Shown in pieces: positions 3,701 to 18,468 of a stretch of 64,000 bases of DNA. The DNA comes from Pedobacter faecalis (GTDB taxonomy: Bacteria > Bacteroidota > Bacteroidia > Sphingobacteriales > Sphingobacteriaceae): contig NZ_JARXOW010000001.1 in NCBI RefSeq assembly GCF_030182585.1, positions 1,116,001 through 1,180,000 on the forward strand, in the 5' to 3' direction. The number at the start of each line of letters is the position of its first letter. Position 1 is the stretch's first letter. The notes beneath the pieces were generated by a model. That model was not told the origin of the DNA, did no database searches, and worked only from the letters and a program-made list of their open reading frames with translations. Position numbers and translations under genes: made by a program.

Positions 3701-4173
3701 GCCTCATCAGCAAGCTGATCATCAGTTATATAAGCCTCCAGACAAGGCACAGCAGCATCATTGCCAACCAGGTCAAACTGACTGATGATAAAAGCCTTGT
3801 TCTGCTTATCAGAAAGTTTCGCCAGGGCCTTACAGTATGCGCTAACCGCCATAGACCGCCAGGCCTGCTGTCCGGATTTGGTAGAAGCAGCGGTAAAACC
3901 ACCCACCGCATACTCAATTAATGAATTATTGCCCTTGCCCGGCGCAGTCAGCCCGCTGATCAGCGTCACATAACCGTCCTCACCAAGATCAGTAATCTCC
4001 TTCATGTTCCGGGCGAGCTGGGCAGCATCCCTGGCAGGCAACTGGGCCAGCAGGTCGGCTATTTTGGTCGTAACAGTTCGTTCATCTTTTTTGTCCTGGG
4101 CAAAAACCATATTGCCGGTCATACTGGTCAGCAGAGCAACCGGCAGCAGGACAAATAATAATTTCTTTATCAT
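745..4173 (-). CDS. Exported HEAT-repeat protein with two C-terminal DUF1080 domains
   Basis: A 1142-residue protein with a Sec signal peptide (residues 1-25, hydrophobic core LLFVLLPVALL, then VFA-QD). Residues ~30-700 are Ala-rich helical repeats of the HEAT/PBS-lyase type, probably a protein- or ligand-binding solenoid. Two DUF1080 (3-keto-disaccharide hydrolase/concanavalin-like) domains follow at ~728-930 and ~940-1140, each starting with a V-F-(N/D)-G-(K/T)-(D/N) motif and a conserved Trp. DUF1080 proteins act in periplasmic cleavage of 3-keto-glycosides. The gene lies 44 bp downstream of a Tat-exported Gfo/Idh/MocA oxidoreductase, which could make the 3-keto substrate. Fusion of a long solenoid to two hydrolase domains is larger than the common single-domain form. 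Substrate unknown. Confidence 0.85.
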   Translation of the reverse strand: MIKKLLFVLLPVALLTSMTGNMVFAQDKKDERTVTTKIADLLAQLPARDAAQLARNMKEITDLGEDGYVTLISGLTAPGKGNNSLIEYAVGGFTAASTKSGQQAWRSMAVSAYCKALAKLSDKQNKAFIISQFDLVGNDAAVPCLEAYITDDQLADEASRALAKIGSPAAVSALVTGLGKANGKAKVAVVEALGHTTSKAAADAIGPLAAGSDKDLAKTALYALAHIADASSADVLVKAAEDAGYKYDKTNAVASLLVYAENRVASDKAGVEKIAKAILEKATGDDQVEQRIAALKLIAETQTGQQALLDAMNDKQFEFRAAAVRLAAAGLTDANSAEWVKRLRKADAPTKVLIIDMLGRAHAKSAYPVFLKLFKDKDAEVRSAAFSAAAWTGQEKAIEPMAKVMGKDTANLAAVSEVLQRIRGNDVTASISSSIAGAKTEVQVALINVLAARAASGQRNVISAALTSNKPEVRKAAFAALKSVYTPESKAELFALMDKTTDPAELNDIQAAIIAVNKQGSNADAQTAEIMAQMDKSAEDKKLLYYKVLGSIGGKKSLSAVSSAFNTGNDAVKKAALDALSSWADAGSADELIKIARTTNNPDFLNQAVNGYLRLVRNADYADEQRLLLLRNAMAVAKTPAQQQRILKDIEGAKCFNAIVFAGQYLDNPATRQAAANAVMHITMAGEYHGDIVKNLLNKTIAVITGGDAGYQKEGMRKYISSMKPGEGFVQVFNGKDLTGWKGLVADPIKRSKMDAQTLADAQAKADAAAKDSWKVINGELVFQSHGDNLATVKKYGDFEMLVDWKIIDDKKGEGDAGIYLRGTPQVQIWDNARTNVGAQVGSGGLYNNQSNPSKPLVVADNKLDEWNTFRILMKGDRVTVWLNGVLVTDNVILENYWDRNLPIFAEEQIELQAHGSPVAYRDIFIREIPRPKPFELSAKEKKEGYKVLFDGTNMHSWTGNTTDYVIEDGNIAIRPKPGQGSGGNLFTKEEFSDFVFRFEFKLTPGANNGLGIRAPLEGDAAYTGMELQILDNEAPIYKDLHVYQYHGSVYGTIPAKRGFLKPVGEWNYQEVIANGPKIKVILNGTVILDGDLTPFRKNGAPDHKDHPGLSRDSGHIGFLGHGSPLEFRNIRIKDLAKKEGT

Positions 4174-4217
4174 GATTTATTAATCAAATTTTTTGTTTGA
4201 AACAGTTCTCCTGATGG

Positions 4218-5510
4218 TTAAATAGAAAAAGGCGCGCGCATTACCGGGTTGATGAGCCTGTTGGCCGCCTCATCATCCACAAACTCCTGGTTTACCGGAT
4301 CAAACTTCAGCGACCTTCCGAGTCTCAAAGCCGCCAGGCCAATATTTACAATATTACAGGAACGGTGTCCGTTCTCCTCGTTCAAAGCAAACTTCTTCCT
4401 GGTCCTCACCGACTCTGAAAATTCCACGATTTCCGGATCAGGATCAGGGAACTGCGCCAGCTTGCGTTCCAGATCAGGAATATCGGACTTAAACCCAGGG
4501 TAGAGTTTACCCTTAGGGCCTTCAATATAAGGAACATTCGTATCCTTGCCCTCTCCATCCAGGATGATCTGGCAGCCATCCGCATAAGTATAAGTGATCC
4601 TGCGCCAGATGCCCACAGCATCCGTATGCTGTTGCGGAGCATCCACCTCAACAGAAACCGGGTTGGTATCATCTTTACCCAGGAAATACTGGATCGGGTC
4701 AATATAATGCTGGCCCATATCGCTCAGACCACCACCATCATAATCCCAGTAACCCCTGAAAGTCTGGTGTACGCGGTGCGGATGGTATGGCCTATAAGGA
4801 GCAGGCCCTAACCATGAATTGTAGTCCAGTTCCGGCGGTACAGGCTGGGGCTCCAGATTGTCTTTACCCACCCAGTAAAACTTCCAGTCATAACCTGTAT
4901 GCTTGCCCACCGTCACTTTTAGCGGCCAGCCCAGCATACCACTGTCAACCAGTTTCTTAATGGGTTTCACAGTCGTGCCCATACCATAAAATGTATCTTT
5001 AAACCTGAACCAGGTATTCAACCTGAACATGCGGCCGTGCTGCTTTACAGCTTCCACAACCCTTTTTCCCTCGCCTATCGTATGGGTCATTGGCTTTTCA
5101 CACCAGATATCCTTACCCGCGCTGGCCGCATCAACAGCCATAATCCCGTGCCAGTGCGGCGGAGTAGCAATGTGTACAATATCCACTTCGGGCAACTGGA
5201 TCAGCTCACGGTAATCACTAAAAGTCTTTACACCCTTGTCCAGCATGGACGCAGCCTGCTGCAGGTGGTTTTTGTCAACGTCACAAATGGCCACCACCTG
5301 GGTGCCCTCATATCCAAAGTGGCCGCGGCCCATACCGCCTACCCCAATTACCGCTTTTGTCAGCTTATCGCTGGGTGCAAGAAAGCCCTGTCCGCCGAGC
5401 ACATAACGGGGAACAATAGTAAAAGCGGCCACACCGACCGCAGACTTCTTAATGAAATCTCTCCTGGTGTTTTTTTGTTGTGGTTCTTCCGGTTTCATAT
5501 AAATGGTCAA
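4218..5510 (-). CDS. Tat-exported Gfo/Idh/MocA family oxidoreductase
   Basis: A 430-residue NAD(P)-dependent oxidoreductase. A twin-arginine signal (RRDFIKKS, residues 16-23, then a hydrophobic stretch) points to folded export to the periplasm. The Rossmann glycine motif GVGGMGRGH follows at about residue 56, and the family EKP motif (CEKPMTH) lies near residue 138. Family members oxidise or reduce sugars, often at C3, with a bound cofactor. The likely start is TTG at 5510: an AAGGAG element (complement of 5520-5525) is 9 nt upstream, whereas ATG at 5498 would be about 21 nt from it. It heads a two-gene unit with the HEAT/DUF1080 gene and is divergent from a ROK regulator, suggesting glycoside catabolism through a 3-keto intermediate. 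Confidence 0.88.
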   Translation of the reverse strand: MTIYMKPEEPQQKNTRRDFIKKSAVGVAAFTIVPRYVLGGQGFLAPSDKLTKAVIGVGGMGRGHFGYEGTQVVAICDVDKNHLQQAASMLDKGVKTFSDYRELIQLPEVDIVHIATPPHWHGIMAVDAASAGKDIWCEKPMTHTIGEGKRVVEAVKQHGRMFRLNTWFRFKDTFYGMGTTVKPIKKLVDSGMLGWPLKVTVGKHTGYDWKFYWVGKDNLEPQPVPPELDYNSWLGPAPYRPYHPHRVHQTFRGYWDYDGGGLSDMGQHYIDPIQYFLGKDDTNPVSVEVDAPQQHTDAVGIWRRITYTYADGCQIILDGEGKDTNVPYIEGPKGKLYPGFKSDIPDLERKLAQFPDPDPEIVEFSESVRTRKKFALNEENGHRSCNIVNIGLAALRLGRSLKFDPVNQEFVDDEAANRLINPVMRAPFSI

Positions 5511-5687
5511 GTTTGGGTTCTCCTTATCGCGCCCTTACAGCACAAAAAATCGAATGCTTGTATGGTTAATATTAGCGAGAAATTGTCGAAAAGTCAAAAC
5601 ATCGTGTAATTATTTACGGAATAAAAATACTTCTATAAAATTTTAATATAAGTTGTCTATATTTACCAAAATTGAAAGATTAAATAA

Positions 5688-6953
5688 ATGAATCTTCATC
5701 TATTAAATAACATAACCAAACCGGCGCGCGATAAACAGCTGCTGTACAAATTCCAGCTTGTCAAACACCTTTTCAACCTCGGGCCGTGCTCAGTTTCCAC
5801 CCTGTGCCATACCATGAACATGAGCACCCCAAGCATTTTGAAGCTCATCAGCAACCTGACCGACGAAGACTGGATAGAAAAGAAAGGCTATGGGGTTTCG
5901 ATGGGCGGCAGAAAACCCGATCTATATGGGCTAAAGGACAAAAAGATACTTATTATATGTATAGATATAGAACTGTTCCGTACAAAAATAGCCGTTATGG
6001 ACAACAACTATAACTATGTAGCCGAACCCAAAACCATTACCCTGCCCATATCAAAAAGCAGCAGATCGGACTTCTTTAGTATTTTAACCACAAATGTCCA
6101 GGAAATACTCAAAGAACACCACATCAGCAACGATCAGCTGATCGGCTGCAGCGTAGGCATGCCCGGCCTGGTCGATTCCGAAAAAGGACAAAGCTACAGC
6201 TACTTTTTAAGTGATGCAGAAAATACATCCCTTGCAGCCGCATTTGAAAAAATGCTGCAGCTGCCCGTGGTTATACAGAACGATGTAAATGGATCATCAA
6301 TGGCAGAATTCACACACGGAATGGCAAAAGGCAAACAAAACGCACTTATATTATTAATGGACTGGGGCGTCGGCCTGGGTATCATTATGGACGGGCAGCT
6401 GAGAAAAGGGGCCTGCGGCTTTTCCGGAGAACTCGGACATATCCCATTCGTCGAAAACGGTGCCCTTTGTTATTGCGGAAAGCACGGCTGCCTGGAAACT
6501 ATCGCCTCAGGCAATGCCCTGTCAGAAATGGCCAAGGAAGGCATTTTATCAGGCAAAAACTCCATGCTCAATAAACTCAGTAAAGAAGAACTGCAAAGAA
6601 TTGAACCTGCCGTGATCATCGAAGCAGCAAACAAAGGAGATCAGTACGCCATACAGCTGCTTTCCAACATAGGCACCTATATGGGCAAAGGAATTGCCGT
6701 GTTGATACAGCTGTTCAATCCGGAACTGATCATCCTTAGCGGAAAGATAGCTGAAGCCAAACAGTACATTACCCTGCCCATGCAGCAGGCCATCAATACT
6801 TACTGTATGACCCAGATCAGGGAGCGCACAACAATCGTGTCTTCAGAACTCGGTGAAAATTCCCGGCTTTTGGGTTATGCTACGACAGGCATTGACCATT
6901 TCCTGGGTGCCTGTATCCAAAAAGCAGGAAAGCACAAGATGCCGCTGCGCTGA
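5688..6953 (+). CDS. ROK family transcriptional regulator
   Basis: A 421-residue protein. Residues ~15-80 form a winged helix-turn-helix, and the rest is a ROK sugar-kinase-like domain. The ROK zinc site is present (C261, C263, C268 in the form CxCGxxGCxE), as is the conserved GHxxF histidine H251. The first phosphate-binding motif near residue 92 is degenerate (the usual DxGxT reads DIELFRT), so it is probably a sugar-sensing repressor of the NagC/XylR type and not a kinase. It is divergent from the oxidoreductase/DUF1080 pair across 177 bp and is the likely regulator of that pair. The inducer is unknown. A perfect hairpin overlaps its stop codon. Confidence 0.88.
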   Translation: MNLHLLNNITKPARDKQLLYKFQLVKHLFNLGPCSVSTLCHTMNMSTPSILKLISNLTDEDWIEKKGYGVSMGGRKPDLYGLKDKKILIICIDIELFRTKIAVMDNNYNYVAEPKTITLPISKSSRSDFFSILTTNVQEILKEHHISNDQLIGCSVGMPGLVDSEKGQSYSYFLSDAENTSLAAAFEKMLQLPVVIQNDVNGSSMAEFTHGMAKGKQNALILLMDWGVGLGIIMDGQLRKGACGFSGELGHIPFVENGALCYCGKHGCLETIASGNALSEMAKEGILSGKNSMLNKLSKEELQRIEPAVIIEAANKGDQYAIQLLSNIGTYMGKGIAVLIQLFNPELIILSGKIAEAKQYITLPMQQAINTYCMTQIRERTTIVSSELGENSRLLGYATTGIDHFLGACIQKAGKHKMPLR

Positions 6954-6967
6954 GGAAGCGGCATCTT
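6936..6967 (+). terminator. Rho-independent terminator overlapping the ROK stop codon
   Basis: Perfect 11-bp inverted repeat AAGATGCCGCT (6936-6946) and AGCGGCATCTT (6957-6967) with a 10-nt loop that contains the TGA stop. A short T-rich stretch follows (TAGTCTTT). The terminal codons of the ROK gene therefore form the left arm. Confidence 0.75.
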
Positions 6968-7015
6968 TAGTCTTTGGCTTTTCCATAGGAGCTGAAGTTA
7001 CGGCTCCCGCTGGTT

Positions 7016-7211
7016 TTATACTGGCGTAATGCTGTACAACTCTTCGGTATTGATTTCTATTTCCTGCTGGTTATCTTCTCTGAAAAACAAGTATCTGCTC
7101 GTTGCTGTCTTGTTGATGAATCTGCCCGTCATTTGCAAGCCGCGTGCAAAGACCAGGTTGACTTGCCGGTCAGTGCGGATTGATTTTGAGAAGGGATCCT
7201 TTGAGGTCCAT
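7016..7211 (-). pseudogene. Small hypothetical gene broken by a one-base frameshift
   Basis: On the minus strand an ATG at 7211 reads MDLKGSLLKINPH and hits TGA. Reading on in the next frame gives a protein-like stretch beginning DRQVNLVFARGLQMTGRF and ending EELYSITPV before TAA at 7016-7018. Removing one base near the TGA joins both parts into about 64 residues. The intact C-terminal part alone could start at ATG 7132 (38 aa). I do not recognise the family. It lies just upstream (leftward) of a pair of nested inverted repeats that could be its control region. It could be a pseudogene, a sequencing error, or two unrelated short frames. Confidence 0.4.
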
Positions 7212-7267
7212 GCGTATCATAATTCCTATTTAATCAAACTTAGCAATAAATTGCCAGTCAAACAGGA

Positions 7268-7353
7268 AAATAAGAATTATAGTTCTTATTTGAATGTAAA
7301 GCAGTAGCAAACCTATTCGAGAAAAGGACAAATACGAACTATAATTCTTATTT
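7268..7353. repeat. 25-bp inverted repeats, each arm itself a palindrome
   Basis: Arms at 7268-7292 and 7329-7353 match as inverted copies at 24 of 25 positions. Each arm is also a dyad: the left one reads AAATAAGAA, TTATAG, TTCTTATTT. Two near-identical palindromes 61 bp apart (start to start) look like paired operators for a dimeric regulator, or the ends of a tiny non-autonomous element. The 36 bp between them hold nothing recognisable. Confidence 0.8.
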
Positions 7354-7556
7354 ATAGAAAATCAAGCAACGATGGTGTGAACTCCTTACATGGCAATACT
7401 ATATCCAGCCTCATCGCTTAGCTCATTGATAATCAAATAAAAAGGGCTCATCAAAATTGAAGAACCCTTGAATTTTTTGAGCTTACTCTCAATCAGTACT
7501 CCTAGACAACCTGCTCTCACTGGATTTTGTGAAGGATTTGGAGAAATTAGCCAACA
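7354..7556. other. Gap with an imperfect hairpin and a truncated coding remnant
   Basis: No complete gene. An imperfect stem AAGGG/CCCTT (7442-7446 and 7465-7469) followed by six T residues could be a weak rightward terminator. From about 7500 a plus-strand frame without its own start reads LLSLDFVKDLEKLANIAG and ends at TGA 7631-7633 (last residues YQRKTAPA). It looks like the tail of a lost gene; family not recognised. Confidence 0.35.
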
Positions 7557-7811
7557 TTGCAGGCGGTATGGTTGCAGAACCTCTCAGTAGGGACTTTAAG
7601 AAAAAATACCAGCGTAAGACTGCTCCAGCATGAGAAACCCAGAAAAGTCAGCCGGTCATTACTGCTGGAACATGGATTTGATTTCAGGTATCACACAGGT
7701 ATACTGAACACCAAGAACGGCACCTATTATTTTTGTTATCGCTATGGATGGCGGGAACTCGAAGACGGGAAATTTCTGCTGGTGGAAAATGACGATCAGG
7801 TAGATATTTAA
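7557..7811 (+). CDS. Small hypothetical protein or gene remnant
   Basis: The frame opens at a TTG (7557), but only its second half looks like protein: from about 7644 it reads KVSRSLLLEHGFDFRYHTG, then TKNGTYYFCYRYGW and ELEDGKFLLVEND. This resembles a small aromatic-rich conserved domain of unknown function. The first part overlaps a different protein-like frame, so the true start is doubtful and a frameshift between the two pieces is possible. It lies in the decayed left end of the accessory island, upstream of the RES gene. Confidence 0.4.
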   Translation: MQAVWLQNLSVGTLRKNTSVRLLQHEKPRKVSRSLLLEHGFDFRYHTGILNTKNGTYYFCYRYGWRELEDGKFLLVENDDQVDI

Positions 7812-7888
7812 TAATGGCGCATACCAAGCTTTATTAAATTGCGATCTTAGATATCACCTAATAGAATACTACTAATTGTTCATAAATT

Positions 7889-8464
7889 ATGTTACCTGAA
7901 TTTCCAGAGATTCCCCCCGCAAAAATCTATAATGATAAAATGACTCCTGAGCAGGAAGTTACCTTTAAATTAGTTAGAGGAGAGAAAATCACGGAGGAGG
8001 AGGAAGCAATTTTGAACGAAGCCATCGAGTTTTACGAACGAGCTTATCCATTTTTGAAATCAATTGATCTTTCTCAAATCAATGATGAAGAAGCACAGAC
8101 GATTGTCGCATTTATGAAGACTGTTTTCAATATGCAAATTCAGGTGCAAAATAAAATCACATTTGAGAACATATACAGAGTTAGTTTTGTACGAGAGTCA
8201 TTTCTTGAAAAAGGAAAAGTACGAAACCTGGGCTATTTAATACACCCGCCCGTGGCAGTCAATCTAGCAAACGGCGTTTATGGCCGCGCCAATTCCCCTA
8301 GAACCACACTTTTTTACGCCGCTTCTCACCTTGATGTTGCTATTTTGGAGACCAAACCTCAAGTAGGTGACAGAATTATTCTTGGTCACTGGAAGCATCG
8401 TCCAGATGAAAAATTTGTGACCTATCCCTTAATGAATGAAAAAAAGTACAAACTGAAGAGTTGA
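7889..8464 (+). CDS. RES-domain protein, N-terminal part (0 frame)
   Basis: A 191-residue product. An N-terminal helical extension of ~85 residues, rich in Glu, is followed by the first two thirds of a RES domain: the Arg in IYRVSF (about residue 97) and the Glu in VAILETK. RES domains of this type degrade NAD+ in toxin-antitoxin pairs. The frame ends at TGA 8462-8464 just after a run of seven A. The missing third of the domain continues in the -1 frame (8461-8910). A -1 slip at A_AAA_AAG (8440-8446) would fuse both parts into a 340-residue protein. No Xre/MbcA-like antitoxin gene is adjacent. It is either a frameshifted pseudogene, a programmed frameshift, or a homopolymer error. Confidence 0.75.
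   Translation: MLPEFPEIPPAKIYNDKMTPEQEVTFKLVRGEKITEEEEAILNEAIEFYERAYPFLKSIDLSQINDEEAQTIVAFMKTVFNMQIQVQNKITFENIYRVSFVRESFLEKGKVRNLGYLIHPPVAVNLANGVYGRANSPRTTLFYAASHLDVAILETKPQVGDRIILGHWKHRPDEKFVTYPLMNEKKYKLKS
8440..8446 (+). other. Candidate -1 slippery heptamer A_AAA_AAG
   Basis: The zero-frame codons are GAA-AAA-AAG, so the heptamer A_AAA_AAG is phased exactly as in the dnaX type of programmed -1 frameshift site. After slipping, reading continues GTA CAA ACT GAA GAG into the downstream RES part. I see no strong Shine-Dalgarno-like element 10-14 nt upstream and no clear stable hairpin just downstream, so the stimulatory parts are missing or weak. Confidence 0.5.
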
Positions 8465-8910
8465 TCAAAGCCAAGGGAAAATTCGAGGAGAGAATGAAAT
8501 ATAACCATCCCCTTTTTGCTAGGATACTGGATTTACTGCTTGAATTTATCAGTTCCGAATTTGTTAAAAATACACCGGTGATTAGTCCGAAGCGCTACGA
8601 ATATTTATACAGTGCCTACTTCGCCGACGAGATGTTGGATAATTCGTTTGAACCGGTGCCACACCCAGTTGAAGAACTTGCGCGTTATGATGCCTTAGTC
8701 TACCCCAGTATTGCCAATAAATATGAGACGGAGAATTTAGCAATAATGCCTGAATCGGTGAAAAAGCTAATTCCCCACCAATTTCTCGATTGCCAAGTTT
8801 TAAGTCTTGAACCTTCTGAATTAAATGGGGAGCCAATACCGATTACGGTCTCCATTTTACGGAAATCGTATTATATAGAAGGTGACCTGGTCATTTGGGA
8901 AGATGATTGA
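8461..8910 (+). CDS. RES-domain protein, C-terminal part (-1 frame)
   Basis: 149 codons from a nominal TTG. The protein-like reading extends further upstream to 8446 in the same frame (VQTEELIKAKGKF), with no good start codon there. This supports synthesis as part of the upstream protein. It holds the last conserved RES element, YDALVYPSIANKYETENLAI, whose Ser completes the R-E-S triad. The two pieces overlap by 4 nt. Alone it would lack the Arg and Glu and could not be an active NADase. Confidence 0.65.
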   Translation: MIKAKGKFEERMKYNHPLFARILDLLLEFISSEFVKNTPVISPKRYEYLYSAYFADEMLDNSFEPVPHPVEELARYDALVYPSIANKYETENLAIMPESVKKLIPHQFLDCQVLSLEPSELNGEPIPITVSILRKSYYIEGDLVIWEDD

Positions 8911-9090
8911 TTCCGTTTCAAGCACATTATTATTTAGGCTTATGTGCATATAACCAATCCTGAGCCTGCTCATCCAGCGAGCCAGATAATTCCCTTGGTT
9001 GATCTTTACTATTTATACACAGGGGATTGCACATTACCCCGGATAAGTATTTTCATATATATTAGTAAAATATTCTAAAAAACTTTCCTT
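8911..9090. other. Leader region of the vWA/PP2C/kinase triad
   Basis: 180 bp without a gene. A weak promoter of the Bacteroidota form may lie at 9027-9055: TTG at 9027-9029, an 18-nt spacer, then TATTTTCA at 9048-9055 (two mismatches to TAnnTTTG). Nothing else is visible. Confidence 0.3.
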
Positions 9091-9765
9091 ATGGATGAAT
9101 ACATATCTTTTGAACAGATCCCTTTTGGTTCCGATGATTTTGCCAACAATCCGGAGTCTCGCTGCCCATGTATGCTGTTACTCGACACTTCGGGTTCAAT
9201 GGGCGGCAGGCCCATACAAGAACTCAACGAAGGGATACAAATTTTAAAAAATGAGCTGGTACAGGACTCGCTCGCCTCAAAACGGGTTGAAGTAGCCATG
9301 ATAACTTTTGGACCTGTCTCACTTGAATCTGATTTCCAAACAGTTGACCATTTCTACCCAAAAACACTCTCGGCAAATGGCGATACGCCCATAGGCAGTG
9401 CAGTTACTTTAGGAATTGAGCTGATCAATAAAAGGAAACAACTCTACCGGGAAAACGGAGTAGGTTACTACAAGCCCTGGATTATCCTGATCACCGACGG
9501 CGGACCTACAGATAACTGGTCACATGCAGCTAAATTGATCCAGGATGGAGAAAACGAAAACAAATTCGCATTTTTTGCCATTGGTGTGGAAGGTGCCAAC
9601 ATGGACACTTTGAGCAAACTTTCGGTCAGGAGCCCTATTAAGTTAAAGGGACTCATGTTCCGCGAATTCTTTTTATGGCTATCTTCTTCCATGAAAATGG
9701 TATCCAGCAAAAATCCAGGCGAACAGACGAAGCTTTTACCACCAACGGGTTGGGCAAACCTATGA
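9091..9765 (+). CDS. TerY-like vWA domain protein
   Basis: A 224-residue von Willebrand A domain protein. The metal-ion-dependent adhesion (MIDAS) motif DTSGSM lies at residues 32-37, and a second loop reads ITDGGPTD about 100 residues later. No signal peptide or membrane segment, so cytoplasmic. It is the first gene of a tightly coupled three-gene run: its TGA overlaps the ATG of a PP2C phosphatase gene (ATGA), and a kinase follows. This arrangement matches the TerY-P triad described for Ter-type stress systems, where the vWA protein is thought to act as a metal-dependent scaffold. No other ter genes (terB/C/D/E) are in the window. Confidence 0.85.
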   Translation: MDEYISFEQIPFGSDDFANNPESRCPCMLLLDTSGSMGGRPIQELNEGIQILKNELVQDSLASKRVEVAMITFGPVSLESDFQTVDHFYPKTLSANGDTPIGSAVTLGIELINKRKQLYRENGVGYYKPWIILITDGGPTDNWSHAAKLIQDGENENKFAFFAIGVEGANMDTLSKLSVRSPIKLKGLMFREFFLWLSSSMKMVSSKNPGEQTKLLPPTGWANL

Positions 9766-10523
9766 TTTGGAAAATGATCGGTCAAAGCGTGATCGGCACC
9801 TCCCATATTCAATCTGGAAAAACGTGTGAGGACGCGGTTTACCATAAGATCATGTATTCTGATAAGCATGATGAAGTACTCCTATGCTTTGTCAGCGATG
9901 GTGCCGGAAGTGCCAAATATGCTGCAAAAGCTGCAGACGCCTCCGTCTTGAAAGGTGCCGAGTTCGTTGAAAAAGTTATTTATTCAGAAGATCAGCTGAC
10001 CGAATCCAATTTAATTGCGGTCGCCGAACAGATTTACGATCATCTCACTACCCTTGCAGCAGAGCAACAGGTGCCTAAAAACGAATTTTCCTGCACGCTA
10101 CTGGGATGTATAATTTTCCCAGACCGCGCAGGATTTATCCAGATTGGTGACGGAGCGATTGTAAGAAGTGTTGCTGGCCAACATCTTACAACTGTCTGGT
10201 GGCCTCACAATGGAGAATATCAAAATACTACAACATTTCTCATCGACGATCCGAATTTTCCGCATCTTAAGACAAAAGTGATTGACGAGACCATTACTGA
10301 AATCGGGATCTTTACTGATGGACTCCAGATGCTAACATTGAATAATGAAACCGAGGGCGTCCACCAGCCTTTTTTCAACAATCTTTTTCCGCTGCTCAGG
10401 CGTGCAACTGAGCCAGATCACCTCGCAATCTTGAACAATCGGCTCATCGAATACTTATCCGGAGATGTTATCAATAACCGGACGGATGACGATAAAACAC
10501 TATTCTTGGCCACACGATTGTAA
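9762..10523 (+). CDS. PP2C-like protein phosphatase of the triad
   Basis: A 253-residue protein. PP2C metal sites are visible: CEDAV (Asp24), SDGAGSA (Asp46-Gly47), IFTDGLQML further on, and DDKTLFLA at the C-terminus. This indicates a Mn/Mg-dependent Ser/Thr phosphatase that would reverse the partner kinase. I chose ATG 9762, which overlaps the vWA stop as ATGA. A longer in-frame version from 9675 would run inside the vWA gene and adds nothing domain-like. The stop overlaps the next start as TAATG. The interlocked starts and stops imply one transcript and coupled translation of phosphatase, kinase and vWA protein. Confidence 0.87.
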   Translation: MIWKMIGQSVIGTSHIQSGKTCEDAVYHKIMYSDKHDEVLLCFVSDGAGSAKYAAKAADASVLKGAEFVEKVIYSEDQLTESNLIAVAEQIYDHLTTLAAEQQVPKNEFSCTLLGCIIFPDRAGFIQIGDGAIVRSVAGQHLTTVWWPHNGEYQNTTTFLIDDPNFPHLKTKVIDETITEIGIFTDGLQMLTLNNETEGVHQPFFNNLFPLLRRATEPDHLAILNNRLIEYLSGDVINNRTDDDKTLFLATRL

Positions 10524-12472
10524 TGACCTCACAGATTTACCAAGGCATTCGGGGAAAGCATTACTCCGCCGGACCAAAAATCGGTCAGGGTGGAGAGGGT
10601 GCAGTGTTCGCCATTCAGGGCGAAGATACGCTGGTGATCAAAATCTACACTGAAAAACTCGATCCAGACAAATCAGAAAAACTGATCTACATGGCCTCCA
10701 TGGTAAGTGATGAGCTCACAAAATTTGCAGCCTGGCCATTGGACATTGTCAAAGATAGGCTCGGGCAGACATGCGGCTTTGTAATGCGCAAACTGGAAGG
10801 ATATGTCCCGTTACATAATCTGTTCAACCCAATGGACAGGAAAAAGCTCTTCCCTGACAAAGGCTATAACTTCTTAGTCCACGTATCGCGCAACCTGGCT
10901 ACCGCATTTCACCGGATACACCACTTAGGCATCGTTGTTGGAGACGTTAACGAAGCTAATATACTCGTAAGTGCGGCAGGCATGGTCGCCTTGATCGATT
11001 GCGATTCATTCCAAATAAAAAACGGCACCAAATATCACTACTGCGAAGTAGGCATTCCAAGATATACTCCCCCCGAGTTATTGCTCAAAGGCTCTTTCCA
11101 CCAAGTGATCCGCACCGTCAATACCGACAATTTTTCACTGGCTACACTGATATTTCAACTGCTTTTTCTAGGCCGAGCGCCTTTCACCGGCATCAATCCC
11201 GGCAGTCAGGAGATAGACGAGGAAACGGCCATAAAAACCCACGAGTTCGCCTACTCGCTAAGACGCCAGAACAAAAAACTGTTTCCTGCCAAACATAGCC
11301 TGGAACTTCATGCAATGCCCACTGGAATTTCTGCACTTTTCCATGCCGCGTTTGAACATACTTTGGACAGACCAACCGCGGCTGCCTGGCTTAATGAGCT
11401 TGCCGGCTTGAACAAAGTGATTGTGCAATGTGCCAATACTAAAATTCACTACTATCCTAAAGGTGTCGGCTATTGTCCATGGTGCAGATTTCGCGATAAA
11501 CACAACATCATTTACTTTCTGGATGATTCCTATCTCAAGGCACTTCCGCAAATGAACGACATCGACCAGTTTGTGAACGGCTTTAAACTGGACAAAATCG
11601 AACTTAAAACACTAACAGAATCTTACACCAAACCAGCTCTAAAAGCAGAACCCATAGAAGCAAAATTCCACACCTGGAGAGTAATGAATGTCAGTGTTAT
11701 TTCGCTGATAGTCCTAGCGACAATGGTCCTTTGCTTCCTATTCAACTGGCTGTGCTTATTTGGAGGTTATGTAGCCATATTAATTGTGAACCGCTTTTCA
11801 CCTGTTAAAAGGAAACTGGAAAGCGAATTTAAAAACAGGCAGGATAAGTTAACCAACCTGAAGCAGTCGTTATCCTCCTTGGTAAAACAGCACAACTATC
11901 CATCAGAACTGACCACCTACAATCAGGCTGCCAGACAATTGCAACTGTCAATAGACGCCTTCAAAGGTCTTCCCGGAGAATTCAATAAGCGAAAAAAGAA
12001 GATTGAAGAGGATCATTACAACGCAAAACTCCATCTGTTCTTGCAGCATTTCGATGTTACACGCCATCCCATTCCCTCCTTTGGCACTGCAAAAAAGACG
12101 CTCATTTATGGTAATGGCATTCGGACAGCAGCCGACATCACTAAACTCAGGTACACAAAAATTGCAGGTATCGGCCCAAAAAACATTCAAATATTAATGG
12201 ATTGGCGAAGGCACATTAGCACTGGATTTGCTTATACACCAGATAAAACCATCATTGATCAGCAAATCAATTCTGCCGCCCAGGAATTCACCGCAAAAAA
12301 ACAAAAGCTGGCCATAGATATCAAAAATCAGTACAAAGCAGTCGCAGCCCTCCAATCCAATATTTTATCAAGTTCCAACAGGCTGGAAACACAATACAAC
12401 AACCTTATTCCTATCCTTTACCAAGCCCAGCTAAACTTCGATGCCTTTAAGAAATTCAAAGGGAAACTTTAG
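10523..12472 (+). CDS. Membrane-linked protein kinase with zinc-ribbon-like and HhH segments
   Basis: A 649-residue protein. The kinase domain (~15-270) has the glycine loop GQGGEGAVF (21-29), ATP-binding Lys40 in VIKIY, a catalytic loop GDVNEANIL (~140), and DCD in place of DFG (~160). A C-H-CPWC cluster near 300-320 resembles a small zinc ribbon. Two adjacent hydrophobic segments (~387-426) probably form a membrane hairpin, followed by a ~100-residue coiled coil and a helix-hairpin-helix segment (~530-560, with IAGIGPKN) of the DNA-binding kind. Kinases of TerY-P triads are linked to zinc-binding and nucleic-acid-binding modules. Substrates are unknown; with the vWA and PP2C genes it would form a reversible phosphorylation switch. 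Confidence 0.87.
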   Translation: MTSQIYQGIRGKHYSAGPKIGQGGEGAVFAIQGEDTLVIKIYTEKLDPDKSEKLIYMASMVSDELTKFAAWPLDIVKDRLGQTCGFVMRKLEGYVPLHNLFNPMDRKKLFPDKGYNFLVHVSRNLATAFHRIHHLGIVVGDVNEANILVSAAGMVALIDCDSFQIKNGTKYHYCEVGIPRYTPPELLLKGSFHQVIRTVNTDNFSLATLIFQLLFLGRAPFTGINPGSQEIDEETAIKTHEFAYSLRRQNKKLFPAKHSLELHAMPTGISALFHAAFEHTLDRPTAAAWLNELAGLNKVIVQCANTKIHYYPKGVGYCPWCRFRDKHNIIYFLDDSYLKALPQMNDIDQFVNGFKLDKIELKTLTESYTKPALKAEPIEAKFHTWRVMNVSVISLIVLATMVLCFLFNWLCLFGGYVAILIVNRFSPVKRKLESEFKNRQDKLTNLKQSLSSLVKQHNYPSELTTYNQAARQLQLSIDAFKGLPGEFNKRKKKIEEDHYNAKLHLFLQHFDVTRHPIPSFGTAKKTLIYGNGIRTAADITKLRYTKIAGIGPKNIQILMDWRRHISTGFAYTPDKTIIDQQINSAAQEFTAKKQKLAIDIKNQYKAVAALQSNILSSSNRLETQYNNLIPILYQAQLNFDAFKKFKGKL

Positions 12473-12548
12473 ATTCGTCAAATGAAATTTGATTCTGAGA
12501 CTATCTATTCCATATTCTGAGTCCTTCAACTAGCTGTCAGTTCCACAC

Positions 12549-14297
12549 CTATTTACTTTTTGAGGATTGCTCCCATTGATTTTCTTCTATAACATCTTTC
12601 TTTTTTGGACTAAGCATACTTCTCCACGAGTCAGGGAAAAACTCATTTTTATAATACACGTGTGCAAGTGTTCTTAGATAGCTAAATCCAGCTCGATCTG
12701 TTCTATAATCAATTTTCTCAATAGGTTTTTCGCTCATCCAATCCCGAAATTCTTTAAAAGAGTTTTTAAGACTAAGACTGGTTTCGACATAAAACTCCTG
12801 ATCAAAGTGCTTTTCAAATAGCAATTGCTCGATGTCATATACGTTATAATTAGGATAAGCAGTTTGCAGATTAATTTTACCTTCAAATCCAACCTTAAAA
12901 CTGTCATAGATGTATTCCCCTGTTAGAATGGCTGTTAACTCAAATAATATCGTAATAAGCAATGAACTTCTATCCTCATACCCTTCTTTATTGTCACTTG
13001 CAATAGCTTTAATTAATATGGACGCGTCTTGTGAAAGTAAAGGGAAGCGATCAGTAATCTGATGGGTGATTATGATATTTTCGAAGATGCTAACCAAATA
13101 GTCTGCAACGAATCTAATGTCATCTTCATCGTATTGATCGAGGACAAATCGGAAAACATTGAGTACTGTAATAGAATGATAATCCATTATGGCCCTGTGA
13201 CAGCCATCGTTGTTCTCAATCAACTTTTTTAGAGCAGATTTTTGTTTGATCAACAACCGTGTCCGTTTTACATCCGATACCTTTGGTAAAAACTGCGGAT
13301 AATGCTGCCGGACCTGACAGTAATAAACAAAGTAATTCAAATATTCAAAGCTTCGTAATGGGAAGCCAGCCTCTTCGAAAAAACCCCCACGCTCCGAATA
13401 TAGCCCATTCTCTTTACACGCTGTAGGAAATGTGGTAGCAAAATACTTGTCAAGCATCTTGTAATGCAGCATGACGAGTTTTCTAAATTCTCTAATAACC
13501 GATGGTTTGGTTTCAAGTTTATGTGATAACACCCAGCTCCATGTCTTCAAAAGAAGATAGGTAAGACACTGCTTAGCAGGCTCTAAATTATTGTTTTCAA
13601 TACTGTAATGGGTGATTACATTACCCAAAAGAATCTGTGTGGCAAAGAACTTATGGAACGATCTTCCCTTATTATTTTCACCTATTTTTTCAATTTGTAG
13701 ATCAACAAGAGCTCTAAAATCGCTGAAGTCGTTTTCAGGGGCATCTAATAGAATAAGCGTTCGCTTGAATAATCTGAGGCTGTGCTCATCGGTTAGCAGG
13801 TTCTCATTAAATAGATATTGACTAAAGAGATCTGTTAAATAAAAAATATCCCACCTTTCAAACTCACCATCTTTGAATTCTCTGGCTATAAATCCTTCAA
13901 ACGTAGGCCTGATGTTGGTCTTCATAATGCCGTTGTGCACGAAAACAATCTTAATCGGTAGAGAATTAAATGCAGGAATAGAACTGTCGTTGAATGCCGT
14001 ATCCTTAGCTTCGATGATCGACTCACGAACGCCATCTTTGGAAGAATAGTTTTTGTCTGTGATGTCTTTATCAGCGTGTCCTTTTAACTCGAAATAATAA
14101 CGGTGCTTTACTCCAAACTCATCCTTACCGATAGCGATAATGTCTTTGCCATACTGGGATTGCCCTTTTGCTTCTTTGGCAGTAGCAACTATCCTAAAGC
14201 CCATCAAATTAATCAGTATTGGGAATAGGGCATCAAGCTCCCCGTCCTCCTTCAAATTCTCCAGATATTCTCTTACAATAATACTATTGCTTCCCAT
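12549..14297 (-). CDS. PD-(D/E)XK nuclease-like protein
   Basis: A 582-residue protein of unknown family. The first ~120 residues look like a restriction-endonuclease fold: GQSQYGKDIIAI (Asp52) and then RYYFELKGH (Glu70, Lys72), the pattern D-x(17)-ExK of PD-(D/E)XK nucleases and Mrr-like proteins. The remaining ~450 residues are mainly helical without a recognised domain. It has no signal peptide. Its ATG (14297) lies 25 nt inside the end of the upstream helical-repeat gene, so the two are very likely translationally coupled partners. Convergent with the kinase gene, 76 bp apart. Nuclease activity is inferred from the motif only. Confidence 0.6.
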   Translation of the reverse strand: MGSNSIIVREYLENLKEDGELDALFPILINLMGFRIVATAKEAKGQSQYGKDIIAIGKDEFGVKHRYYFELKGHADKDITDKNYSSKDGVRESIIEAKDTAFNDSSIPAFNSLPIKIVFVHNGIMKTNIRPTFEGFIAREFKDGEFERWDIFYLTDLFSQYLFNENLLTDEHSLRLFKRTLILLDAPENDFSDFRALVDLQIEKIGENNKGRSFHKFFATQILLGNVITHYSIENNNLEPAKQCLTYLLLKTWSWVLSHKLETKPSVIREFRKLVMLHYKMLDKYFATTFPTACKENGLYSERGGFFEEAGFPLRSFEYLNYFVYYCQVRQHYPQFLPKVSDVKRTRLLIKQKSALKKLIENNDGCHRAIMDYHSITVLNVFRFVLDQYDEDDIRFVADYLVSIFENIIITHQITDRFPLLSQDASILIKAIASDNKEGYEDRSSLLITILFELTAILTGEYIYDSFKVGFEGKINLQTAYPNYNVYDIEQLLFEKHFDQEFYVETSLSLKNSFKEFRDWMSEKPIEKIDYRTDRAGFSYLRTLAHVYYKNEFFPDSWRSMLSPKKKDVIEENQWEQSSKSK

Positions 14298-16249
14298 CTC
14301 TTAAAATCTTTTGTCCAATCTTCTATGTACCAGGTTCTCATCTCATAATCATATTTATTAGGTGATATTGAGTGCTGCCTCGGAAAAACCATACTTGCCC
14401 CAATTTTAGAAAGTTTGCCTATCCTACTGTCTACCTCCCCGTCCTGTTTCCAGCCCCCTCCCTTAGCCAATATTACTGTCGTTGCCAACTGACTGATGAC
14501 ACTACCTTTGTTAATCCCTTTTTGAATCGAGGTATTGAACTTCGAATTCCATATCTCGTTAAATTCCTTCATAAGCTTCGACTGCGTATAATACGGGTTC
14601 AATTCTTTGATCACCGATTTATGCCTCATCATCTCAGTAACGTATTCATTCTTTTCTTTTAATCTACTGATCAGCGCCTGATCCTCTGGGTCATTGGGAT
14701 CCGCGTATTTTTCAAAAATGTCAATGATCGGGACACCAAAGTTTTCAATTTCATATTCTAACTTCAGCTTGAAAACGTCAGCAACAAACGATGAACTGCT
14801 TTTTCGCAGAGGCAAAACGATTGGTAGCGCTCTTTCAATATCGTAGTCCATGTGAAGAATCGAAACCCAGAGTTTATACTGATCTAAAGGTGGCAATGTC
14901 AATAAATCAATTGCAAAATTGAAGGGTCGACGCGGGTGGTATATTGACTTCATTATTTTCCCGGCAGCTAATCTGACCCATCCAAGATCATGTATCAACA
15001 GCGAGATCAATTCACTAGAAAACTCCTCTGGCGCCTCATTGAGAAAATGATGTATTGGGTAATCAAATGAACTGACAGGGAATTTCTTTCCGTAAGCGAC
15101 GTACGCTTCCACAAAACGGAAGAAATATTTCGGGCTGCTCCGTCCAGCTAAGGCATTGCTGATCCCATCGTGAAGGTCCCCATTATTAATCTCTTCACCA
15201 ATTGAAAGGACCAGCTCATTTATTTTTTCATCATACCCATCAACCAACCTCAGGTTATGGAGTACCTGCTGTTTTACTCTTAAGTCTGAACCTTTTAGAA
15301 GCGCCTGTAGTGCAGAAAAACACTTGTCAATGACAGCGGTATCAATCAAGTTATTGTTTCCCAAAAGTTTAATATAAAATCTCGGTAATCCAATTGATAA
15401 CTCATATTTATGAGGACTTATTGACTCAATAACATTAATAACCGCATGCGCCTCCATTTCATCACGGATGCCAAATGCAGACACAGCTGTAATTATCGGC
15501 AGATGAGTCTTTGCTTCTACAATCATGGCCTTGAGAAAATCACATTTATTGCCAGTACTGTGGTATTTTCCAACGATAGCAGGGGCGAAGAGCATGACTG
15601 GAGCATTTGGCTCGGTCATACAGTAGCCTAGATATTCATCTGCGATATCCTCTCGTGAACTGCTGTGTCTTGAGATAGCATTGCCAATCTGTATCAAGGC
15701 GTCATTATGATAAAGACTGGTTTGAAGCTTTGAGATTAGAAAACTAGTGATTTTTATGATCTGCTCAACAGATAAGTTTAAATCTAATAAGTTCTCAAAG
15801 AACACTGTGTTGAATTGTCGAAGTAATGGCATCTCCTCCTGAGCTTCAAACATTGGAATAATTTCCTGAAAGTCGGTTCCATGTTTCTGTCTTGAGACTA
15901 TCAAAAGATACTTTAGCAAGGAGTTGATTTGCCTACTCATCCCAATCACACCCCGATCATCCTCCCTGTAATAATTCTCGACCCGCTGCGTAAAATCTAG
16001 TGTAGCTCTAAAATCTTGGTTAAGCTTAAATTTCAACTCAGACGACATGGATGAGAAAAAGATTTTGGTAAATTCTTCTATGGGGACGATGCTGATTATT
16101 TCCTCTTGTTCAGCTAGGATGCCTTTAGTGAGCAACTTAGCATAGTTATAATTAAAATCGCTTTTAGCGAATTGGAAGGTCTTTTGGGCAATGCTTGCTT
16201 TAGCCAATTCCTTTATGGTAAGCACTTTTGCTTTCTGCTGCGTTTTCAA
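14273..16249 (-). CDS. Large helical-repeat protein, partner of the nuclease-like gene
   Basis: A 658-residue, mostly alpha-helical protein without signal peptide or membrane segments. Periodic helix pairs in the middle (for example FVEAYVAYGKKF, ELISLLIHDLGWVRLAAGK) suggest an ARM/HEAT-like solenoid. No family recognised. The start is uncertain: TTG at 16249 is the first usable codon; the frame is open upstream to about 16335 without ATG, and GTG eight codons in is an alternative. It overlaps the nuclease-like gene by 25 nt. A solenoid next to a nuclease suggests a sensor/effector pair, as in many phage-defence modules. This is inference from context, not from homology. Confidence 0.6.
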   Translation of the reverse strand: MKTQQKAKVLTIKELAKASIAQKTFQFAKSDFNYNYAKLLTKGILAEQEEIISIVPIEEFTKIFFSSMSSELKFKLNQDFRATLDFTQRVENYYREDDRGVIGMSRQINSLLKYLLIVSRQKHGTDFQEIIPMFEAQEEMPLLRQFNTVFFENLLDLNLSVEQIIKITSFLISKLQTSLYHNDALIQIGNAISRHSSSREDIADEYLGYCMTEPNAPVMLFAPAIVGKYHSTGNKCDFLKAMIVEAKTHLPIITAVSAFGIRDEMEAHAVINVIESISPHKYELSIGLPRFYIKLLGNNNLIDTAVIDKCFSALQALLKGSDLRVKQQVLHNLRLVDGYDEKINELVLSIGEEINNGDLHDGISNALAGRSSPKYFFRFVEAYVAYGKKFPVSSFDYPIHHFLNEAPEEFSSELISLLIHDLGWVRLAAGKIMKSIYHPRRPFNFAIDLLTLPPLDQYKLWVSILHMDYDIERALPIVLPLRKSSSSFVADVFKLKLEYEIENFGVPIIDIFEKYADPNDPEDQALISRLKEKNEYVTEMMRHKSVIKELNPYYTQSKLMKEFNEIWNSKFNTSIQKGINKGSVISQLATTVILAKGGGWKQDGEVDSRIGKLSKIGASMVFPRQHSISPNKYDYEMRTWYIEDWTKDFKRWEAIVLL

Positions 16250-16350
16250 GCGTTCGTTGTATTTGGTTCCTATTTTTGGTGTAAAGATCGACTTAATATA
16301 AAGATAACTTTTTGTAGTAAAAAAGAAGATTTGAAACCTCTATTACAAAC

Positions 16351-16380
16351 AAAAGGCCACCGAAATATCCGGTAGCCCTT
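16351..16380 (-). terminator. Terminator after the histone-like gene
   Basis: On the minus strand AAGGGCTACCG, a short loop, then CGGTGGCCTT, followed by TTGTTTG. One A/C mismatch lies in the stem. It starts about 24 nt beyond the stop of the Hc1-like gene and separates it from the nuclease-system promoter region. Confidence 0.7.
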
Positions 16381-16403
16381 TCCCCAAAACAGTATTTCTC
16401 CTG

Positions 16404-16586
16404 TTATTTACTTGCTGTATTTTTTAGTTCAGTCACTTCGTTACGGCCTTCGCTTGCAAGGGTTTTGATCTCTAAGTAAGCTTTACGCAAACGCGTACCG
16501 GCCGCTTTATTCTGTTTACCGTAAAATGCCGCCGCATCAGCTTCTGTTGCAGCGATCAGTTCTTTGATTTTTTCAAATGAATTCAT
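16404..16586 (-). CDS. Histone H1-like protein (Hc1 family)
   Basis: A 60-residue basic/acidic protein starting MNSFEKIKELIAATEADAAA and containing NKAAGTRLRKAYLEIK. This matches the small Hc1-like DNA-associated proteins common in Bacteroidota, which carry the motif NKAAGTR.R. It probably binds the nucleoid. ATG 16586 is chosen over a longer frame to 16646, because the extra 20 residues are hydrophobic and unlike the family. It has its own terminator and lies between the accessory island and tRNA-Leu. Confidence 0.85.
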   Translation of the reverse strand: MNSFEKIKELIAATEADAAAFYGKQNKAAGTRLRKAYLEIKTLASEGRNEVTELKNTASK

Positions 16587-16647
16587 AAATTCTAATTTAA
16601 GGATGTAAAAATATAATTGAATACTGACAAGCAGCAGCTTAGCCAAA

Positions 16648-16788
16648 CTACATCGCCAGTTCGTTCTCCTGCTCCTTGGTTTTCGATTTGTCCTTGCCTT
16701 TACTCTTATTCAGATCCTGACCCACCTGCTGCTCCTTCTTATAATCCTCGCGGATAGCAGGTCTGGGGTAAGGGTTTATTTCGAACAA
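16648..16788 (-). CDS. Possible 46-residue charged peptide
   Basis: A minus-strand frame from TTG 16788 reads MFEINPYPRPAIREDYKKEQ, then a Lys/Glu/Gln-rich tail ending ENELAM. The frame is open upstream for ~13 more codons without an ATG, so it could be the tail of a lost gene. Composition is protein-like and not random AT-rich reading. It lies between the Hc1-like gene and tRNA-Leu. Not recognised. Confidence 0.35.
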   Translation of the reverse strand: MFEINPYPRPAIREDYKKEQQVGQDLNKSKGKDKSKTKEQENELAM

Positions 16789-16835
16789 GATACATCCACC
16801 CGGCCTTCCATGATAACCTACTGAAAATCAACAAA

Positions 16836-16865
16836 AAAGGATTGCTTTTTTATGAGCAATCCTTT
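16836..16865 (-). terminator. Terminator downstream of tRNA-Leu(GAG)
   Basis: Perfect 10-bp stem AAAGGATTGC (16836-16845) and GCAATCCTTT (16856-16865) with a 10-nt loop, flanked by A and T runs on both sides. It would stop leftward transcription leaving tRNA-Leu 27 bp away. Confidence 0.85.
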
Positions 16866-16891
16866 AAAAAATTCACCATGAATCTAGTTAG

Positions 16892-16974
16892 TACCCGGAA
16901 GCAGATTCGAACTGCCACGCCCGTAAGGCGCCACCCCCTCAAGATGGTGCGTCTACCAATTTCGCCACCCGGGT
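16892..16974 (-). tRNA. tRNA-Leu (anticodon GAG)
   Basis: Cloverleaf read on the minus strand. The acceptor stem ACCCGGG pairs with TCCGGGT, with discriminator A. The D-arm has AATTGGTAGAC. The anticodon stem CCATC/GGTGG encloses the loop TTGAGGG, giving anticodon GAG. A long variable arm typical of class II tRNAs is present, and the T-arm GGCAG-TTCGAAT-CTGCT is intact. CCA is not encoded. It starts 21 nt after the MBL hydrolase gene on the same strand and may share its transcript. Its 3' end faces the accessory island. Confidence 0.95.
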
Positions 16975-16995
16975 ATATTTCCTGCAAATATATAC

Positions 16996-17760
16996 TTATT
17001 CACAAGATAATGTCAAGCCATCATAAGCTAATTTCATATTTTCTGGCAATTCCTGCTCTACCTGGGTATGAAGACCCATATTGTGACTGATATGCGTGAA
17101 ATAGGTGGTCTCGGCCCCTACTTTCTTAGCAAAAGCAATGGCTTCTTCTAAAGTAAAGTGTGAGATATGATCTTCTTTTTGCAAGGCATTCAAAACCAAT
17201 ATTTTGCAGCCCCGGATCTTTTCCAGAGTTGCATCGGATATCGTCTTTGCATCGGTGATATAGACGAAGTCTTTGATCTTGAAGCCCAGAATGGGAAGCT
17301 TGTAATGCATAATTTCAAGCGGCGTGATTTCGGTTTGCCCGATATGGAACGGCGCTGCGTCTATGGTGTGCAGGGTTAATTGCGGCAGTCCGGGATATCG
17401 TATTTCTGAAAATATGTAGGAGAACTCCCGTTTCAGATTGTCCTGAACCTGTGTTGTTGCATAGATATCAATATCCTTCTTCAACAGATAGTTGAATGGC
17501 CTGATGTCGTCCAGTCCGGCTACATGGTCGCGATGCTCATGGGTGTAAATGATCGCGTCAAGATCTTTTACATTTGCCCGCAGCATCTGGTATCTGAAAT
17601 CGGGGCCGCTATCTATCACTATGGTCTTATCGCCGGTTTCTATAAGCACCGAAACACGTAGGCGTTTATCCCGGGCGTCGTCCGACTGGCATACGGCGCA
17701 GTTGCATGTGATAACGGGAATGCCTTGGGAAGTTCCGGATCCTAGAATAGTGATTTTCAA
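16996..17760 (-). CDS. MBL-fold metallo-hydrolase, PhnP-like
   Basis: A 254-residue cytoplasmic metallo-beta-lactamase fold protein. It begins MKITILGSGTSQGIP followed by C-N-C-x2-C, as in PhnP-type phosphodiesterases. The metal-binding motif THEHRDHVAGLDD, a later ITDAKT, and the histidine of FTHISHN complete the two-metal site. PhnP-type enzymes hydrolyse cyclic phosphodiesters, but the name here reflects fold and motif only; no phosphonate genes are nearby. It follows lolA on the same strand after 51 bp. Confidence 0.85.
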   Translation of the reverse strand: MKITILGSGTSQGIPVITCNCAVCQSDDARDKRLRVSVLIETGDKTIVIDSGPDFRYQMLRANVKDLDAIIYTHEHRDHVAGLDDIRPFNYLLKKDIDIYATTQVQDNLKREFSYIFSEIRYPGLPQLTLHTIDAAPFHIGQTEITPLEIMHYKLPILGFKIKDFVYITDAKTISDATLEKIRGCKILVLNALQKEDHISHFTLEEAIAFAKKVGAETTYFTHISHNMGLHTQVEQELPENMKLAYDGLTLSCE

Positions 17761-17811
17761 AACAAATGATCTGCTTAGCGCTCAAACATAGAAAAAATTG
17801 CCGAGATATAT

Positions 17812-18468
17812 TTATCTCAGATCAACAACTTCCACGCCCGGATATTTCTTGGCGTCGAAAGTGAATGTACTTTCTGGCACTTTAACATTGTGGACAAATG
17901 TTTTGATGTTATAATTATACTTATTGCCGTTTTTATCGAAGATCAGGACGTTAGCAATACGTTTTGCGAGCTTATCTATACTGAGCCGGATCTTGAAGTA
18001 AGCTTTTTTTGTGTCTATTGGCGCCAGATCTATCGTTTGATATACTTTGCCGGCCGACTTGCTTTCGCCGGTGTAAGTGTATTTAAAACCGCGCTCGTAA
18101 ATGGTAAACATCTTTGCCGGGTTTAAGGCGTCTGCACTTTGGTCGGCCTCCACAACCTGTACCTCTTTATCATCCTTCAAATAGGTCCACTGACTTTTAC
18201 CATCACTGATCAGGTGCTGACTGGTCATTTCGATGCGGTATTTATTGGTTTTGGCGCGCACATAAAGTGTGCCTTGCTGTGATTCCCTGGTTTTAGACTG
18301 GGGATTATCCATGGTGAATGTGAAATCACTTTTCACCACATCGTACGAGCGGTATTTTTTGCTTACCTGGTCTAGTATAGCCCTTGCTTTAGCATCATTT
18401 TGGCCGTAGACAGCCACGGAGGCCATCATCGAAACTGCGGTCGACATCAATAATAAGGTCCTTCTCAT
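17812..18468 (-). CDS. lolA: LolA-type outer-membrane lipoprotein carrier
   Basis: A 218-residue periplasmic protein with a signal peptide (MRRTLLLMS..., cleavage near VYG-QN). The LolA-fold core contains SDFTFTM, GTLYVRAKTNKYRI, SQWTYLKDDKEV and LNPAKMF. LolA shuttles lipoproteins from LolCDE to the outer membrane. The start at ATG 18468 is set by AAAGGAG (complement of 18474-18480), which overlaps the ftsK stop codon; a start 11 codons earlier inside ftsK would lose the signal peptide shape. It is 10 bp downstream of ftsK, a common Bacteroidota pairing. Confidence 0.88.
   Translation of the reverse strand: MRRTLLLMSTAVSMMASVAVYGQNDAKARAILDQVSKKYRSYDVVKSDFTFTMDNPQSKTRESQQGTLYVRAKTNKYRIEMTSQHLISDGKSQWTYLKDDKEVQVVEADQSADALNPAKMFTIYERGFKYTYTGESKSAGKVYQTIDLAPIDTKKAYFKIRLSIDKLAKRIANVLIFDKNGNKYNYNIKTFVHNVKVPESTFTFDAKKYPGVEVVDLR

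Follow-up and report, generated by a model that had tools for sequence, protein, structure and literature searches.

Two overlapping genes on the reverse strand of a 64,000-nucleotide stretch of the Pedobacter faecalis genome (contig NZ_JARXOW010000001.1, positions 1,116,001 to 1,180,000; the whole stretch is called the window here) very probably encode an Olokun anti-phage system and are named oloA and oloB in this work. The oloA gene (14273..16249) starts with TTG and specifies 658 residues predicted to form a HEAT-type helical solenoid, a probable sensor or scaffold, while oloB (12549..14297) starts with ATG and specifies 582 residues with an N-terminal PD-(D/E)XK nuclease-like domain followed by a helical part. 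Both open reading frames (ORFs) are present as a first-pass annotation of this DNA had proposed, and the end of oloA and the start of oloB have the 25 nucleotides 14273..14297 in common, which probably couples their translation. The TTG start is credible because window OloA begins at the same position as its two closest relatives do. Chance or frameshifted ORFs are ruled out by homologues of about equal length for both proteins (507 for OloB at E <= 0.001), and two OloA relatives found by sequence lie on contigs equal in length to those of two of the closest OloB relatives; the pair is genuine, with both genes intact. A terminator-like hairpin with a 14-pair stem (16351..16381, reverse strand) follows the upstream Hc1-like gene and separates the pair from it, so that oloAB probably forms a transcript of its own; terminator-like sites with such stems number 5 in the stretch versus 2.8 in shuffles.

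Both proteins are named by PADLOC-DB models of Olokun. OloB matches PDLC03926 with 388.7 bits (E 1.5e-116; residues 5-562 on positions 2-554 of 556) and OloA matches PDLC03925 with 154.6 bits (E 1.5e-45; residues 145-646 on positions 82-595 of 596). A new, unnamed system is thereby excluded, and the first-pass annotation, which had presented a candidate new two-gene defence module that it could not match to a named system, was right about a two-gene module of defence type and wrong about its newness. In the same way, its description of the 658-residue protein as solenoid-like agrees with the predicted model, whereas "no recognised family" applies to Pfam and NCBIfam but not to PADLOC. In fact, Pfam returned no match at E <= 1 for either window protein, and the single NCBIfam match, to OloB at 14.9 bits against a cut-off of 238, was treated as noise.

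We take the Olokun family to be defined by adjacent genes on the same strand with OloA first. The window pair is adjacent, tightly coupled, on one strand and in this order, as are the pairs in all 73 loci described below. Its points of difference are that the fit of OloA to the family model begins at residue 145, that OloB ends in 18 low-confidence residues and that OloB keeps E70, which is replaced in the three plasmid members compared. The best-scoring pair among those compared lies on an Agrobacterium plasmid (OloB 717.6 bits, OloA 417.3 bits), and its OloB shares 22.5% identity with the window protein over 608 columns (BLASTP, E 5e-26). For Olokun, two articles cite Millman et al., 2022 (PMC10121019; PMC10855318), and a 2025 paper states that the system is not thoroughly characterised (PMC12592470). 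The portions of the literature searched offered no mechanism for it.

A contig scan with an OloB alignment yielded 73 loci, a set picked by two conserved peptides. In every one of them a same-strand ORF ends between -46 and +23 nt from the OloB start, and the 73 upstream proteins form one BLASTP-linked family with window OloA. The same pair thus recurs in other genomes, and the possibility raised with the first-pass annotation, that homologues usually occur apart in housekeeping contexts, was not borne out: the genes stand together, often beside defence genes. The presence of an OloA-family neighbour in 73/73 loci would also suit a toxin-antitoxin style of action, in which OloA inhibits an active OloB nuclease until infection by a phage takes OloA away or inactivates it; gene order and overlap also link the amounts of OloA and OloB. 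However, OloA is larger than OloB and its long variable half would be superfluous for mere inhibition; we consider this explanation improbable.

OloB model matches were found in 9/395 genomes of the phylum, and window OloB matches in 5/399 genomes of the family, in one of which (G559) the gene is broken; both counts include the own genome. Twelve of the 15 loci from these searches were profiled, leaving out L083, L084 (a repeat of the own locus) and L140 (the second fragment of a copy). Nine had an OloB match, seven of these with an adjoining OloA (own included), and in the other two, L138 and L139, the neighbours match PADLOC OloA at 139.7 and 133.6 bits. Among seven close pairs of loci, five are alike in DNA from the oloA start to about the oloB end, with similarity outside no better than chance; the exceptions are L024/L055 with a common left flank and L067/L070 with parts of both flanks in common. 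Between L067 and L070 the first ~750 nt of oloA (about 8018-8767 of L067) are 93-97% alike and the rest of the pair 72-83%, a pattern that suggests recombination inside oloA. Further irregular copies were seen: on a Tolypothrix plasmid (L114, 3802-4889) oloA is separated from oloB by two ISAs1 transposase genes, in L020 (8047-10022) OloA is spread over two overlapping ORFs, and in G559 (L137, L140) both genes are in pieces with stop codons. From their sequences, we read the split OloA of L020 and the G559 fragments as signs of gene decay. In L142 a gene for 790 residues (6618-8990, forward strand) shares 8 nt with the end of oloB and has below-cut-off matches to HSDR_N (54-118) and STAND/AAA (195-313); it is possibly the third gene of an Olokun operon. 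Tblastn found no phage-borne copy in 50,697 phage records, and none of the 32 stretches of viral_contigs that fit a pattern was confirmed as one.

The predicted model of OloB (mean predicted local distance difference test score, pLDDT, 86.6) folds residues ~1-165 (13803..14297, reverse strand) into an Mrr-like PD-(D/E)XK domain with an alpha-beta core, as its structural matches also indicate, and nearly everything beyond residue 165 into helix. The first-pass annotation had proposed just such a core and a long helical part and had recommended structure prediction with a fold search for both proteins; the N-terminus of OloB does model as a nuclease and OloA as a HEAT-type solenoid. The putative catalytic residues D52, E70 and K72 (14082..14144, reverse strand) lie where they had been placed, inside a conserved block. 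All three are kept in 121/121 sequences of a closer set, and in a wider set of 77 relatives D52 and K72 are invariant and E70 is found in 71, with Q (2), I (2), T (1) or S (1) in its stead.

Structural matches of the nuclease domain include AF1548, MspJI, AspBHI, Avs4, NucS and EcoT38I among the 50 matches listed. OloB resembles the Mrr-like and MspJI-family restriction endonuclease domains in its predicted core fold and its D-(E/Q)xK motif, but window OloB does not reach Pfam Mrr_cat and no modification-binding domain was found in the pair. These likenesses bear on the possibility of direct restriction, in which the OloA solenoid would grip incoming phage DNA, or a modification on it, for OloB to cut without sacrifice of the cell. 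MspJI and AspBHI would favour it, the latter being named modification-dependent in the title of its entry, as would a published table that places Olokun, on grounds either validated or predicted, among systems acting by nucleic-acid degradation (PMC10855318). On the other hand, neither Pfam nor NCBIfam matched a modification-reader or methylase domain in either protein, and the points on OloA given below weigh in the same direction, so that we regard cutting of this kind as unlikely. Avs4 (AVAST type 4) is a single polypeptide with a STAND ATPase. In Olokun, by contrast, one protein would sense and another would cut, OloB is modelled as nearly all helix past residue 165, Pfam gave no STAND ATPase match at E <= 1 in OloA or OloB, and the secondary structure of neither model contains a P-loop-like alpha/beta domain.

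OloA is modelled (pLDDT 87.6; predicted template modelling score, pTM, 0.76) as a superhelix of paired helices of HEAT type from ~58 to 546, beyond which the C-terminal part is also helical; confidence is low at residues 581-598. Its top structural matches are HEAT/armadillo solenoids, namely the PP2A A-subunit, SF3B1 and karyopherins (Z to 11.6). Identity to these is only ~6-12% and the root-mean-square deviation is large, homology is not shown, and the matches may reflect only a common arrangement of repeats. That they are protein scaffolds speaks against a solenoid made for gripping DNA. The OloA alignment comprised the window protein, P0122, P0123 and the proteins of 55/73 loci; left out were ten short OloA, six loci cut by contig ends (L013, L017, L038, L044, L053, L071), L020 with its two ORFs and L049, a near copy of L047. 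Pfam HEAT has no match in window OloA, HEAT_2 matched one of 58 OloA at E 0.0011, and designed armadillo proteins are weak matches of a profile built from the 58 (best E 2.8e-6).

The two proteins diverge along a gradient. Compared with the closest pair, that of Pedobacter sp. N23S346, the window shows 98% identity in OloB 1-190, 80% in the rest of OloB, 80% in OloA 371-658 and 54% in OloA 1-370. Mean identity falls from the nuclease part over the rest of OloB and the OloA C-terminal half to the OloA N-terminal half in all five identity bands, which cover 1,643 of the 1,653 comparisons of 58 pairs. The ratio of nonsynonymous to synonymous substitution rates (dN/dS), calculated among 23 hand-picked loci for pairs with at least 62% OloB identity, stays below 1 wherever estimable. 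In the three non-identical pairs whose dS values are all below 1, the OloA N-terminal half has ratios of 0.24, 0.41 and 0.25, and the nuclease part ratios of 0.04, 0.07 and 0.07. The N-terminal half therefore appears to be under less constraint; positive selection is not shown. That the fastest-changing part is this half of the solenoid is a further point against direct restriction. Pairwise identities of the OloA C-terminal half and the OloB helical part have a rank correlation of 0.81, compared with 0.70 for the OloA N-terminal half and the OloB helical part, 0.72 for the two OloA halves and 0.60 for the two OloB parts; 0/500 permutations reach any of these values, to all four of which common descent contributes. 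Since the C-terminal half of OloA tracks the helical part of OloB best, the data fit docking of the one on the other. We thus propose residues 1-370 (15140..16249, reverse strand), the fast-diverging half, for recognition and residues 371-658 (14273..15139, reverse strand), the better conserved half, for docking of OloB.

Short forms of OloA follow the same division. Complete OloA proteins of only 285-330 residues occur in 10/73 loci, an eleventh (L038) being cut by a contig end. As judged from alignments, the short OloA keeps only the C-terminal half: of four scanned, three match the OloA model only over 280-578 or less and that of L054 not at all at E <= 1. The 300-residue OloA of a Klebsiella michiganensis plasmid covers 313-589 of 596 model positions, and relatives of this pair were found in 2/5,426 E. 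coli genomes. Short OloA retain Q457 (10/11), S484 (10/11), Y at 504 (11/11) and G597 (8/11), lack P552 (0/11) and mostly P630 (1/11). A split OloA was rejected as their origin, as a profile of the N-terminal half had no match at E <= 0.1 to any ORF of at least 60 residues in the ten short loci; it matched in all 13 long loci, which had been part of the profile. In an OloB tree of 75/77 rows (two under 450 residues omitted) the ten short-OloA loci and L038 form one clade with support 100/100, and the Klebsiella michiganensis plasmid row joins other plasmid rows on long branches. Three changes of the short/long label are needed on this tree, one of them owed to the cut row L038. All loci of the clade belong, by their labels, to what we take to be Bacteroidales families. 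An inhibitor as well as a sensor could have the short form, a point in favour of the toxin-antitoxin style of action. The parts of the literature searched contained no description of a half-length OloA type.

The first-pass annotation had pointed to islands near tRNA genes as a common setting of such pairs, and a tRNA-Leu (gag) indeed lies at 16891..16974 on the reverse strand, between a core MBL-fold gene and a variable site. The MBL-fold gene is present in 21/21, and a tRNA-Leu match follows within ~1.1 kb of its 3' side in 20/20 loci (own included). None of the window genes beyond the tRNA was found by tblastn (E <= 1e-8) in the 14-15 kb read in seven relatives, two of which (L107 and L108) have beyond-tRNA genes in common. 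With gene and tRNA constant and the genes beyond differing, the pair lies in a variable site; no direct repeat of at least 16 nt (seed 12) involving the tRNA end, as expected of tRNA-derived att sites, was found in 1-18000. OloB occurs in 1/40 genomes of the genus (the own), and a separate draw of the family brought up a divergent copy in one further genus-mate. A DNA repair or housekeeping pair without a role in defence would be in keeping with the repair nuclease 2vld among the fold matches, but this sparse distribution in genus and family, the broken copy of G559, the variable site and the defence genes beside relatives make it very improbable.

The 128 proteins encoded next to OloB relatives (at most one gene a side, 69/73 loci) matched 169 PADLOC families at E <= 1e-10, with LmuB, HerA, TmtA and type II restriction among the matches listed. 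A control of 97 proteins from 20 stretches, one yielding none, matched 29 families; the matches listed were mostly DpdF and BrxH helicase-type and also PbeA, PsyrT, SngC, PD-T4-6, mad3 and Cas3-type models. This comparison is rough because families and not proteins were counted and PADLOC models overlap. It agrees with the defence-island context that had been suggested, as does a genus-mate in which gajA and gajB of Gabija adjoin a divergent Olokun pair in a back-to-back arrangement (L141, 575-8244).

The Olokun models also match differently built pairs, which bears on the firmness of the label since the models span more than one architecture. In L143 (2169-6162), L144 (2457-6423) and L145 (49-3740), which are the pairs of L079, L081 and L082, the other three of the twelve loci profiled, the first protein (856, 834 and 732 residues) is long and helical or HEAT-like and the second has 490-498 residues. 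The 492-residue protein of L143 reaches 170.2 bits with the OloB model, and those of L144 (490) and L145 (498) match it in part. All three also match the end of the Lamassu LmuA model and conserve ELKVEK near the C-terminus, and neither BLASTP nor hhalign found real similarity to window OloB. Against the OloA model, the upstream neighbours gave 211.2 bits, no match (HEAT_2 below cut-off) and 21.6 bits, respectively. Judging by these matches, the pairs are perhaps a related or a separate system under the same label.

A row of genes convergent to oloB (9091-12472, forward strand) encodes a vWA protein, a PP2C phosphatase and a kinase whose C-terminal part is long, and resembles a TerY-P type triad. 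The kinase occurs in 1/40 genus genomes (the own) and is thus probably part of the same variable region as oloAB. Two overlapping ORFs at 7889-8910 (forward strand) match different stretches of the RES domain profile (21-51 and 86-142 of 157), each below cut-off, and appear to be a split or broken RES-type gene, and an 11-nt tandem repeat of ~4.9 copies is present at 528-581.

In our proposal for the action of Olokun, OloA has one variable half for sensing and another half for docking, and the nuclease is constant. OloA and OloB would be made together and form a complex, with the OloA C-terminal half and the OloB helical part in contact. Recognition of a phage product made during infection would fall to the N-terminal half of the solenoid and would activate the Mrr-like domain of OloB, which would then cut DNA and halt the phage, probably with loss of the cell. 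We hold this mechanism to be just on the probable side, and Olokun membership together with it to be the best explanation as a whole, one that we favour with modest confidence. More tentatively, and in our view somewhat short of an even chance, OloA may be a two-part switch in which a constant C-terminal half docks the nuclease and an exchangeable, fast-changing N-terminal half sets which phage product is seen, the half-length OloA representing a separate, unrecognised class of Olokun.

The pair adds no new defence system but provides predictions on the sensing half, the docking half and the cutting residues. The half-length OloA type, the divergence gradient and the mixed architectures under one label may be of use to the specialist. 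Natural half-length OloA would allow the predictions on the halves to be tested without engineering, and, if the two-part switch is true, this class would sense via the docking half alone or borrow a sensor from elsewhere.
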